From assembly GCF_900109885.1 (NCBI RefSeq), contig NZ_FOBS01000007.1, positions 62,001 to 126,000 of the forward strand: a stretch of DNA of 64,000 nucleotides, given 5' to 3'. The DNA is from Syntrophus gentianae (lineage in GTDB: Bacteria; Desulfobacterota; Syntrophia; Syntrophales; Syntrophaceae). Within the stretch, counting starts at the first letter, position 1, and the number at the start of each line of letters is the position of its first letter. The notes beneath the pieces were generated by a model. It saw only the letters and a list, made by a program, of their open reading frames with translations, was not told the DNA's origin and did not search any database. Below are positions 29,126 to 62,309 of the stretch, piece after piece. A program made the position numbers and the translations under genes.

Positions 29126-30430
29126 ATGGGAAAATGGAAAGCGGTTCATTATCTGAATCAATTTTTCGGTCAGATCGGCGGGGAAGACAAGGCCGGCACG
29201 GAGCCGCTCGTCAGAAACGGCCCCGTGGGCCCGGGGGTTCTCTTTGCGGAGCTTCTCGGACCGGACGTGGAAATCATGGCAACGGTCATCTGCGGGGATA
29301 ATTACTTCAGCGAGCATGTAGAAGAGGCCACGGAAAGGCTGCTGGCCATGATTTCGAGCTACGGTCCCGATCTGGTCCTGGCCGGGCCGGCCTTCAATGC
29401 GGGAAGATACGGAATCGCCTGCGGCGCGGTCTGCACCGCCGTCGTCAGCCGCCTGGGAATTCCCGCCGTGACGGGGATGTTTCCTGAAAATCCCGGGGTG
29501 GAATTGTCCCGGAAGACGGTTTTTATCGTGGAGACCAAGGGGACCACAGCCGGGATGCGGGAGGCGGCACAGAAAATGAGCCGCCTGGCCGGGAAGCTGC
29601 TCAGGAAAGAGCCCCTCGGGTTCCCTGAAGAAGAGGGGTATCTCGCCCGGGGCCTTCGCCGGAATGTCTTTGTCGCACAAACCGGCGCGGAGCGGGCGGT
29701 GACGATGCTCCTGCAGAAACTGAAAGGGGAGCTCTTCGCCACGGAATATCCCCTGCCTGTCTTCGACCGGGTGCCCCCTCTGCCTCCGGTCGAGAAGGTG
29801 AGTGAGATTACCCTGGCCCTGGTTACCAGCGGCGGGATTGTCCCCAGGGGAAATCCGGATCGTATTGAAGCCTCCAGTGCGACCCGGTACGGAAAATACG
29901 ATATCGGCGCCCTCTCCCGGTTGACGCCGGAAACCCATGAAACCGCCCACGGGGGATATGATCCCACTTACGCCAATGCAGATCCGAACCGGGTGCTGCC
30001 TCTCGATGTGGCAAGGGACCTCGAAGGGGAAGGGGCCATCGGCAGGCTCTATCCCAGCTACTATGCCACGGTGGGGAATGGGACGTCCGTGGCCAGGGCC
30101 GGACAGTTCGCCCGGGAGATCGCCCGGGACCTGATCCGGGACGGCGTCCGGGCCGTGCTGATCACCTCCACCTGAGGAACCTGCACGCGTTGCGGGGCAA
30201 CGATGGCCAAGGAAATTGAAAGAGCGGGAATACCGGCCGTCCATATCTGCACAGTTGTTCCCATTTCCCGGACGGTGGGGGCAAACCGGATCGTTCCGGC
30301 CGTTGCCATCCCCCATCCCCTCGGTGATCCCGGCAGATCGGCAGCGGAGGAAAAGAAGCTGCGCAGGTCGATAGTGGAAAAGGCCCTGCGGGCGCTCGAA
30401 ACGAAAATCGAAGGGCAGACCGTTTTTTGA
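29126..30430 (+). CDS. grdB: Glycine/sarcosine/betaine reductase component B selenoprotein subunit
   Basis: The coding frame continues through an in-frame UGA at 30173-30175 to the stop at 30428-30430, giving 434 residues with selenocysteine at 350. The context LITST-U-GTCTRCGATMAKEIE matches the GrdB active site. GrdB forms component B with GrdE: the Sec attacks the alpha carbon of the bound amine and passes the carboxymethyl group to GrdA. A hairpin that can serve as SECIS element follows the UGA. A stop-based reading would cut the protein at 349 residues. The ATG follows the grdE stop by 9 bases. The downstream fragment alone has no good start before 30203. Confidence 0.93.
30173..30202 (+). 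promoter_or_regulatory. grdB UGA(Sec) codon with bacterial SECIS-type hairpin
   Basis: UGA at 30173-30175 is followed after 12 bases by CGUUGC-GGG-GCAACG (30188-30202), a perfect 6-bp stem with G-rich 3-base loop. Position and G-rich apical loop fit bacterial SECIS elements read by SelB. Confidence 0.75.
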
Positions 30431-59634: not shown

Positions 59635-59713
59635 GATGACTGTTATTGTTACCATGTAACCGGCGGAATTTCCCGGTTTGTCAACTCAGTCAACGAAGTT
59701 GCCGGAATCCTCA

Positions 59714-60061
59714 TCATTTAAAATCTTCACAACTTTCACAGATGTTCCTACATCCACCAAAAACGCCGCCCTTCCAGTGCTTCATGAGTTCCGAATTCAG
59801 AATGTAACCGGAACCAAAAGTGGAGTGCACATAGTCGATGCTTATGGGGTTTGCCTTTTCAAAAAGGGATTTTTCGACGAGGAACGTCACACCTCTATCC
59901 GTGAACACCTCATCATCTTCCTTTTGCTCATCCAGAGCCATCACAAGAAATGGTCCCCTCCATCCGCCTTCAGTTACCAAGATTCTGATCGCCTGAAGTC
60001 CTTTCTGCTCTGCCAGGAACTCTTTGATCTTTTTCGACGCCTCTTCGCTTACTTCAAACAT
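59714..60061 (-). CDS. HesB/IscA-like protein with Cys-rich tail
   Basis: 115 residues. It starts MFEVSEEASKKIKEFLAEQ and has the HesB/IscA beta fold (IRILVTEGGWRGPFLVMALDE, then YVHSTFGSGYILNSEL). The usual IscA CxC pair is replaced by GGCRNICESCEDF at the end, so three Cys near the C-terminus. This subfamily is found in anaerobic deltaproteobacteria and may bind iron or Fe-S clusters. AAAGGAG precedes the ATG. A consensus promoter is at 60126-60154. Confidence 0.8.
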   Translation of the reverse strand: MFEVSEEASKKIKEFLAEQKGLQAIRILVTEGGWRGPFLVMALDEQKEDDEVFTDRGVTFLVEKSLFEKANPISIDYVHSTFGSGYILNSELMKHWKGGVFGGCRNICESCEDFK

Positions 60062-60125
60062 GAGGAACTCCTTTCTGTAAAATGTGATCAGTTTCCATCA
60101 GATTACATTATATAACATTTTATTA

Positions 60126-60154
60126 CATATAATTCACTTATCCGACACTGTCAA
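60126..60154 (-). promoter_or_regulatory. Probable sigma-70 promoter of HesB-like gene
   Basis: Minus strand: TTGACA (60154-60149), 17-base spacer, TATATG (60131-60126), leader of about 58 bases to the ATG at 60061. Confidence 0.6.
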
Positions 60155-60248
60155 GGTCCGTTATTTCCGAGTGCCCATGTCACAGTTCAGCCTTGAAAAA
60201 ATCTGAATTGTAAAGGATTATTATTCCGTTGCTTGAAAGGAGGGGCAG

Positions 60249-60716
60249 ATGAAGAAGGCTTTGGTGATTTATTCAACCAGATCGAACGAGACGGGAAGGC
60301 TTGCAGAACTCATCGAGGTAGGAATAAAATCAGAAGGAATAGACGTAATGGTGGCTAAGGTTAGCGAGATCGAGAAAAAAGGCATCCAGCTTGAAAACTG
60401 TGACGCCCTCGTCCTCGGATCACCGACGTACAAGGGAGAGATGCTCCAGGAGATGAAGACCTTTCTCTTCACCCTGGAAGCGGCGGACTTGAGCTCTAAA
60501 GTGGGGGGAGCGTTCGGTGCTTTCGGATGGAGTGGAGAAGCGTCGAGGCGAATTTTTGATACCATGAAAAATATTTTCAAGATGAAAATGGTTGATAAAC
60601 CCTTAAGGGTAAAGTCATCTTCCGAAACAGGCGGGGCAATTGAGGCAAAGAAATATGGCAGGGACATCGCAAAAATAGTGAGATATGGAAGGGAAATTGC
60701 GCGAATGATGCAATGA
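60249..60716 (+). CDS. Flavodoxin-like protein
   Basis: 155 residues. The FMN phosphate loop is at the N-terminus (VIYSTRSNETGRLAELIEVG), then LGSPTYKGEMLQEMKTFL (50s loop) and GAFGAFGWSGEASRRI (90s loop), typical for the flavodoxin domain of FprA-type flavodiiron proteins, but without the metallo-beta-lactamase domain. It probably transfers electrons in oxidative-stress defence. GGAGG is upstream of the ATG. It overlaps no gene; the peroxiredoxin gene starts 56 bases after. Confidence 0.88.
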   Translation: MKKALVIYSTRSNETGRLAELIEVGIKSEGIDVMVAKVSEIEKKGIQLENCDALVLGSPTYKGEMLQEMKTFLFTLEAADLSSKVGGAFGAFGWSGEASRRIFDTMKNIFKMKMVDKPLRVKSSSETGGAIEAKKYGRDIAKIVRYGREIARMMQ

Positions 60717-60772
60717 GCCCTTACAATGGACCTCTGCAACATTTTCAAGGCCATCCCTGGGAGGTGTTCCTC

Positions 60773-61267
60773 ATGGCGGCAATCTTGAAAAAAGGTGATC
60801 AAGCACCTGATTTCATCCTTACCAATCAGTTCGGTAAGACCATAAAACTGGGAGATTTCAAGGGCCGGAAACTCATTGTCTATTTCTATCCCAGGTCGGA
60901 TACCACCAGTTGAATCAGGCAGATCGAAGCCGTGCAGGACGCACAGGCCAAACTGCATGACATGGGGGTGGAAGTGCTGGGGATCAGTCCGGATTCTTCA
61001 GATGTGCAAAAAAAGGTCAACGATAGACTTGATCTGAAATTTTCTCTTCTGTCAGATGCTGACCATTCGGTAGCCGATGCTTATGGTGTATGGGATAAGT
61101 ACACCGGAATCATCCGCTCTACCTTCTTCATCGATGAAAATGGCATGATCCTGGCGGCCTGGTACAAGACATGTCGAAAACACCGTCCCCAAGGCAGTGA
61201 TGGGTGTCCCAGGCATTGCCGAAGGTGGATCTCCAGCTTGAGTGATTCCGAACAGGATTATCGTTGA
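60773..61267 (+). CDS. Bcp-type peroxiredoxin, probable selenoprotein; C-terminal frameshift
   Basis: From ATG 60773 (GGAGG nine bases upstream) the frame passes an in-frame UGA at 60911-60913 and continues to 61265-61267. The sequence before and after the UGA is Bcp-like: KGDQAPDFILTNQFGKTIKL, YFYPRSDTTS-U-IRQIEAVQDAQAKL, LGISPDSSDVQKK, FSLLSDADHSVADAYGVW, RSTFFIDENGMI. The UGA is exactly where the peroxidatic Cys of the family sits, so Sec47 is expected; no resolving Cys follows at +5, so a 1-Cys mechanism. After WYKTCR the family end NTVPKAVMGV is found in another frame, ending at 61239-61241: one extra base or sequencing indel near 61177-61181. If translated as written, the last 30 residues are non-native. 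Confidence 0.82.
60911..60948 (+). promoter_or_regulatory. Peroxiredoxin UGA(Sec) codon with SECIS-type hairpin
   Basis: UGA at 60911-60913. GCC (60929-60931) pairs with GGC (60946-60948) and GUGC (60932-60935) with GCAC (60941-60944), with a single bulged A (60945) and loop AGGAC (60936-60940). Position, bulge and GG-containing loop resemble the E. coli fdhF SECIS. Confidence 0.6.
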
Positions 61268-61334
61268 CAGTGTTACAAACCTTAGTGAGGCAAACACCGG
61301 ATTAACAAGAAACAGGGATGAAAGAAGCTGCGAA

Positions 61335-62309
61335 TCAGATCATCCAGGCGGAAACGACTTCCGGGGAAACCGCTATGGCTTCGATTGATGAGCTCTGGCT
61401 TCCGAAAAGGCAGGTCACTGCGACGTTCACATCCTTCGGGGCGTCGCTGTAACGGGCGCAGATCGCTGCGGCAAGTTGAATCATTTCGGCGTTGCCTCCG
61501 CCGGGAATCAGGACGGTTGGCCCCCGGAAGGATGCCATGTAAACCGTGATATCCCCGTTTTTCGTCAACTTTTGAATCGCTTCATTATCAATCCGGTTCC
61601 TTCCGACAATGATCTTCGTTGTTTCATTGATCCGGAAGTGTCGGCCGAATTTCAACAGTTCGATATCCCAGCGGGAATAATCCTTCTTGTGATTGAAAAG
61701 ATCTCTGAGCCTTTTGCTGAACATTGGATCGGTGAGGAGGCAACCACCGGCAGGGGGGGCATAATCGGAGATGCCGTAATGTTCGGCCAGTTCGATCTGG
61801 ATTTTCCGACCCCGTCCTGAAATCGCCAGCAACAGCTCCCGCTGAACCTTCCCTTCGATTTCCGGCTTTGTTTCCGGCAGCAGCCTGGCGGACAATGGCC
61901 TCAGGATGAAATCGCGGTATCCGGAATTTTTCGCAACCACGCCCAGCATCTGTTTCCCCTGCGACATGGGGCGCTGTCCGAGAACTTCCCCCGTAAAGAG
62001 AAAATCGGCTTCCATTTCGCTCATCCTGTCCCCGGCAATTTTCAACATCAGGGTGTGACAATCAATGCAGGGGTTCAAGTTCTTTCCGTATCCGTATCGG
62101 GGAGACCGAAGCATCTGCAAATGTTCGTCGGTGATATCCAGAACGATCAGGGGAAGACCGATCTGCGCGGCTGCTTCCCTGGCCTTCCGGGCACTGAAGA
62201 AAGGGGTTTCGAAGGTGATCCCCAGGACATCGATCCCCTGATCCTGAATAACCTTCACAGCAAGGATGCTGTCCAGACCTCCGGAAAATACTGAAATTCC
62301 TCTGACCAT
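61335..62309 (-). CDS. PP-loop tRNA thiolation enzyme (MnmA/ThiI-like)
   Basis: 324 residues. The ATP pyrophosphatase P-loop SGGLDSILA is at residues 9-17, followed by CIDCHTLML (CxxC), FTGEVLGQRPMSQG and PPAGGCLLTD. This is the MnmA/ThiI-like group that transfers sulfur to uridine in tRNA (4-thiouridine or 2-thiouridine). Its length is shorter than MnmA and lacks the rhodanese domain of ThiI. The ATG shares one base with the stop of the LysM gene upstream, so they are co-translated. The exact tRNA position is not certain. Confidence 0.85.
   Translation of the reverse strand: MVRGISVFSGGLDSILAVKVIQDQGIDVLGITFETPFFSARKAREAAAQIGLPLIVLDITDEHLQMLRSPRYGYGKNLNPCIDCHTLMLKIAGDRMSEMEADFLFTGEVLGQRPMSQGKQMLGVVAKNSGYRDFILRPLSARLLPETKPEIEGKVQRELLLAISGRGRKIQIELAEHYGISDYAPPAGGCLLTDPMFSKRLRDLFNHKKDYSRWDIELLKFGRHFRINETTKIIVGRNRIDNEAIQKLTKNGDITVYMASFRGPTVLIPGGGNAEMIQLAAAICARYSDAPKDVNVAVTCLFGSQSSSIEAIAVSPEVVSAWMI

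Follow-up and report, generated by a model that had tools for sequence, protein, structure and literature searches.

Whether an in-frame UGA in a peroxiredoxin (Prx) gene of Syntrophus gentianae is read as selenocysteine (Sec), and whether the gene that carries it still encodes an enzyme, are the questions raised by positions 60773-61267 (+) of the window, the 64,000-nucleotide stretch of this genome that was analysed as a whole. The UGA-containing gene at this place, here called the window copy, has a single in-frame TGA ahead of its end, with family sequence flanking it on both sides (Table 1); translation from the ATG with this codon as U runs for 164 residues, up to a second TGA at 61265. 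The initial annotation had proposed a Bcp-type peroxiredoxin with UGA at the peroxidatic position, and both parts of this proposal hold. The AhpC-TSA profile (PF00578) scores 120.3 bits (cut-off 26), with its best stretch at residues 8-126, and the alignment column of residue 47 contains Cys or UGA in all homologues aligned. P40, T44 and U47 match invariant columns, and together with R115 they form what we take to be the catalytic set of peroxiredoxins, all of which is retained. In an AlphaFold model from a 30-row alignment, most blocks of residues 1-131 exceed a pLDDT of 90 (mean 86), and residue 47 lies at the N-terminus of a predicted helix spanning residues 45-63. The top PDB matches in a structure search with this model are Bcp structures, and the predicted fold matches that of Bcp.

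Table 1 Features at and around the window copy, in window coordinates
Feature	Position	Strand	Details and basis
Flavodoxin gene, upstream of Prx	60249..60716	+	PF12724, 40.2 bits
Shine-Dalgarno-like GGGAGG	60759..60764	+	8 nt upstream of ATG 60773; direct reading
Bcp/PrxQ-type peroxiredoxin coding region in family frame	60773..61168	+	Residues 1-132, MAAILKKG...AAWYK
In-frame UGA, predicted Sec47	60911..60913	+	Peroxidatic position of PxxxTxxU; alignment
SECIS-like hairpin	60929..60948	+	7 bp, bulged A, loop AGGAC; starts 15 nt after UGA
Seven-residue in-frame deletion	61093..61094	+	GVW joined to DKY, relatives GVWGEKTLYGKKY; alignment
Loss of frame, net -2	61169..61175	+	ACATGTC in place of the 9 nt for VSP in relatives; direct reading, alignment
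Frame-shifted tail read from ATG 60773, TCRKHRPQGSDGCPRHCRRW...	61169..61267	+	Non-homologous to family; pLDDT 39-68
Out-of-frame remnant of family C-terminus, ENTVPKAVMGVPGIAEGGSPA-stop	61176..61241	+	Stop 61239-61241; translation; compare ENTVPKALAALRAG in L075

The machinery for Sec insertion, which the initial annotation had asked to see, is present in the genome (3.7 Mb, 71 contigs): SelA (607 bits) and SelB (382 bits) both score over their cut-offs, and a tRNA-Sec with a UCA anticodon was detected with 77 bits. The grd genes of the window had also been taken as a sign that UGA is read as Sec, and this is borne out by a grdB gene that contains an in-frame TGA and matches SECIS_4 at 30176-30213 (49.5 bits), as well as by a GrdA-like sequence. 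Relatives of the window copy were sought in 155 genomes of the order. UGA occupies the same codon in three further Syntrophales genomes, at L023 in the congener G001, L075 in G497 and L084 in G509 (which starts at a contig end). Frame conservation after the UGA had been named as a test, and all three keep the frame unbroken downstream as far as their contigs reach. A scan of genome contigs found no relative nearer than the congener, and the tree places the window copy and L023 as sisters, a modestly supported grouping (89/52).

One alternative would make the window copy a plain pseudogene: a former Cys peroxiredoxin gene whose TGC or TGT became TGA, with Sec never present at the site. In its favour are the broken frame, the deletion and the faster protein evolution described below, and the intact Cys paralogue on contig C15 of the same genome. 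However, the UGA is shared with three other genomes in which the downstream frames are unbroken, and the nearest neighbour in the tree is itself a UGA copy. The hairpin behind the UGA also speaks against it.

The hairpin, with its bulged A and GG loop, was first noticed in the letters of the window copy (GCC-GTGC-(AGGAC)-GCAC-(A)-GGC), and both direct reading and folding confirm it with seven of seven pairs. A 50-nt stretch containing it folds at -15.8 kcal/mol (z -2.2), and 5 of 200 shuffles were equally stable. The pattern GCCGTGCrGGACGCACnGGC recurs in all four UGA copies, exactly 15 nt downstream of the UGA and with all seven pairs, whereas the Cys copies examined (UGC or UGU) retain between 0 and 6 of the seven; the paralogue in the same genome (L002) and the Cys copy of congener G002 (L024) have three each. 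Differences among the UGA copies are confined to the first loop base and the bulge, and these variable bases are second codon positions at which the amino acid is altered (Q/R and Q/L/R). Third codon positions across the hairpin, by contrast, are identical at six of six sites in every pair of UGA copies, compared with 35-63% over the rest of the gene. Ranked by third-position identity, the hairpin comes first (100%, median 47%) of the 75 six-codon windows that follow the UGA, and in this region only one of six third positions is common to L002 and L024, the orthologous Cys copies. The frozen third positions and the restriction of full pairing to UGA copies fit a SECIS constraint, and protein coding alone would not predict them. 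Given the protein and local codon usage, the chance of seven pairs is 0.046 for the window copy alone and 0.029 and 0.021 for the others of the three copies considered, values that are not to be simply multiplied because the copies are related. Rfam SECIS models did not match the hairpin of the window copy or those of L023, L075 and L084, a result that does not count against the hairpin because SECIS elements of this kind differ by gene. RsmY, the best Rfam match (13.8 bits, cut-off 57), was dismissed as chance.

With UGA in three relatives and a hairpin tied to UGA, we reject a nonsense mutation of a Cys gene; the conserved SECIS nearly refutes the plain pseudogene, which we find barely credible. 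The UGA of the window copy is very likely a Sec codon by origin, and the placement of Sec at residue 47 is well supported by the alignments. Comparison of the copies shows the UGA to be a Sec codon by descent in this lineage, and the frozen synonymous sites amount to comparative proof that these UGA codons of Syntrophales Bcp genes encode Sec.

The active-site context of the window copy is TTSUI, with S rather than G before U and I rather than T after it. The initial reading that a resolving Cys is missing from its usual place was correct, and the feature extends beyond this gene. At the +5 position, where 2-Cys PrxQ proteins have Cys, the window copy has E52 (60926-60928), as do the Syntrophus Cys copies. 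The whole clade around the Sec copies (the window copy, L002, L023, L024, L075, L084 and L060), Cys members included, is without a Cys at +5, with QTEAV at the place where QACSV is found elsewhere. This pattern suggests that Sec arose or persisted in a Prx branch without a +5 resolving Cys. In the mechanism we propose, SelB and Sec-tRNA(UCA) would bind the hairpin behind the UGA and insert Sec47, whose selenolate, activated by P40, T44 and R115, would attack peroxide to give a selenenic acid, as expected from the chemistry of the family. Because the Cys at +5 is missing in the clade, an outside thiol would be needed to reduce the selenenic acid. We infer that the UGA is still decoded in the window copy.

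The initial annotation implied an intact gene as far as 61267, and this part of the description stands up to 61168 and fails beyond it. After WYK (61160-61168) the window copy continues with ACATGTC GAA AAC ACC GTC CCC AAG GCA, where L075 has GTG AGT CCG GAG AAT ACG GTC CCG AAG GCC (VSPENTVPKA), and its frame is lost 33 codons ahead of its stop. Inspection by eye for a programmed frameshift at 61169 revealed neither a slippery site nor a known +1 context. The seven residues absent between W107 and D108 are present in all relatives compared, and the near-invariant G46, T48, R55 and F82 have become S, I, Q and V. The Bcp equivalog NF006960 (cut-off 140 bits) is passed by L023 (164 bits), L002 (157), L024 (161) and L075 (152), whereas the window copy scores 121.8 and, with its frame lost at 61169-61175, lacks the unbroken reading through the C-terminal helix that this family has.

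If the frameshift arose in sequencing or assembly and the remaining changes are ordinary divergence, the window copy would be an intact, working Sec peroxiredoxin. ENTVPKAV of the family C-terminus is readable in the other frame, which makes the break either recent or spurious, and the retained catalytic residues and SECIS hairpin, together with an omega significantly below 1, also favour an intact gene. However, when the window was compared with its orthologous regions in G002, G001 and G003, about 16 real genes showed no second frameshift, which indicates that the assembly is not generally error-prone, and the site is no homopolymer. (One frameshift-like match, L133:+9631, proved to be a shadow ORF lying antisense to real genes.) The clean genes argue against an assembly error at this site without excluding it. 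Moreover, the deletion, G46S, T48I, R55Q, F82V and the threefold omega would persist even with a whole frame, and we regard an intact gene as rather unlikely. A changed enzyme, in which TTSUI, the shorter loop and the frame-shifted tail are retained for a new job, could draw on the three Cys of the 33-codon tail (C134, C147 and C151), one of them as resolving thiol, and on the retained catalytic residues. Against this, the tail occurs in one genome only and is modelled at low confidence, and the old C-terminus, still readable, suggests that it is too young for selection; such a change of function through the tail seems to us very unlikely.

Rates of evolution also set the window copy apart. 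Its end branch in the tree measures 0.58 versus 0.17, and its protein is 66% identical to that of L023, compared with 76% and 82% between other copies of the genus. Third-position identity between the window copy and L023 (63%) is nevertheless not below that of other copies in the genus: 57% for L023 and L002, and 59% for L002 and L024. A two-ratio codon model gives an omega of 0.366 on the window-copy branch and 0.123 elsewhere, an estimate that is uncertain because synonymous branches are long. The one-ratio model is worse by 4.6 log units (2dlnL 9.3) and omega = 1 by 3.3 (2dlnL 6.5), and the omega of the window copy is significantly below 1 overall. Upstream and downstream of the UGA, omega takes similar values (0.31 and 0.40). 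Most simply, these patterns reflect long constraint, including downstream of the UGA, that was later relaxed; a phase in which function changed is possible.

The surroundings of the gene had been interpreted as a plausible small oxidative-stress and Fe-S gene set, an idea that finds no support. The HesB-like gene lies on the opposite strand, and the syntenic regions of G001, G002 and G003 lack the flavodoxin-Prx pair; on strand and synteny we reject a functional operon of HesB, flavodoxin and Prx. In G001 and G003 a gene for a 519-residue protein adjoins a thiI-like gene, with HesB, flavodoxin and Prx all absent between them, and in G002 a HesB-like gene lies between the two without flavodoxin or Prx. 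The gap (about 59690-61340 in the window) is, depending on the congener, empty, occupied by HesB, or occupied by HesB, flavodoxin and Prx. Flavodoxin and Prx occur together at this locus only in the source genome among the four congeners, and no close orthologue of the flavodoxin was found in the congeners. On the basis of this comparison, the pair is either a late arrival here or was lost from G002. The intact Cys paralogue L002 on C15 is 84% identical to L024 of G002, shares the same downstream gene with it and is the settled copy. G001 has the Sec form only and G002 the Cys form only; the source genome has both, and a single genome is thereby seen to hold Sec and Cys forms of this Prx.

The HesB-like gene of the window (59714-60061, -) belongs to the IscA_HesB_Se family (97 bits, cut-off 85). 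It has Trp (TGG) at a position occupied in most relatives by an in-frame TGA (EGG-U-SGPS) and in a few by Cys. The syntenic G002 orthologue, 88% identical, retains both the Trp and the Cys-rich C-terminus (GGCRNICESCEDFK), and this would represent a UGA-to-UGG change outlasting speciation. Matches to NF038090 in the same genome identify seven HesB-like genes, a large family for a single genome; several have an in-frame TGA (on C47, C38, C28 and C6) and some do not. The genome also encodes a second peroxiredoxin-like gene with an in-frame TGA (L003, G000:C1:101162-101536, +), in a UxxC context (FNRGFLUPFCRRH). This is probably the known Prx-like thiol:disulfide oxidoreductase selenoprotein.

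Given that the frame is lost, seven residues are gone and the protein is changing three times faster than its relatives, we consider it likely that the window copy is a 1-Cys-type Bcp/PrxQ Sec peroxiredoxin gene that has come under relaxed selection or begun to decay, in a genome whose Cys paralogue is intact. The retention of P40, T44, U47, R115 and the SECIS hairpin argues against long decay. The chance that the window copy is a working enzyme today is, in our judgement, slightly below even, and we give the same chance to its being non-functional or nearly so. A more specific and tentative proposal, to which we grant somewhat less, is that a selenoprotein has been caught mid-loss: the Sec peroxiredoxin would be wearing out as the Cys paralogue takes over, with SECIS and catalytic residues outlasting the rest. 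If true, the locus would represent an intermediate stage of Sec-to-Cys replacement, and if the damage is real it offers a snapshot of selenoprotein loss in bacteria. As a caution for annotation, a recoded UGA may occur in a gene whose later part is broken.

Sec-containing peroxiredoxins of the TxxU type (COG1225/PF00578) have been catalogued since at least 2005 (PMC1088965, PMC1794560, PMC13188914). One survey counts 12 Sec peroxiredoxins and five Cys-to-Sec events and lists S. aciditrophicus with one Sec peroxiredoxin (PMC1794560). The TxxU form is cited in PMC13188914 as described in a clostridial organism in 2001. The literature searched for bacterial selenoprotein pseudogenes yielded none for the TxxU Prx family. 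PrxU of Eubacterium acidaminophilum, in which Sec at the peroxidatic site was biochemically shown (Soehling et al. 2001, as cited in PMC13188914), represents another subfamily: its profile (NF040737) spans 233 residues, and the window copy reaches 72.6 bits where 270 are required. Among curated families, the best match is Bcp/thioredoxin-dependent thiol peroxidase (NF006960, PRK09437), which the intact Syntrophales Cys and Sec relatives pass, whereas the window copy falls under the cut-off and is without Cys at +5, the usual resolving site. The AhpE-type 1-Cys Prx of Mycobacterium tuberculosis (1xxu, 1xvw) likewise has no resolving Cys and resembles the predicted structure (TM 0.80), but it has Cys rather than Sec and is 27% identical. 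The closest correspondence is with the TxxU Sec peroxiredoxins themselves. The window copy shares with them the AhpC-TSA domain, PxxxTxxU with UGA at the peroxidatic site, a SECIS hairpin behind it with G in the apical loop and the Sec machinery of an anaerobic, Sec-decoding deltaproteobacterium; it differs in the S before U, the I after it, the shorter loop and the broken C-terminal frame. It thus adds a member to a known family, a damaged one that is probably under relaxed selection or decaying.
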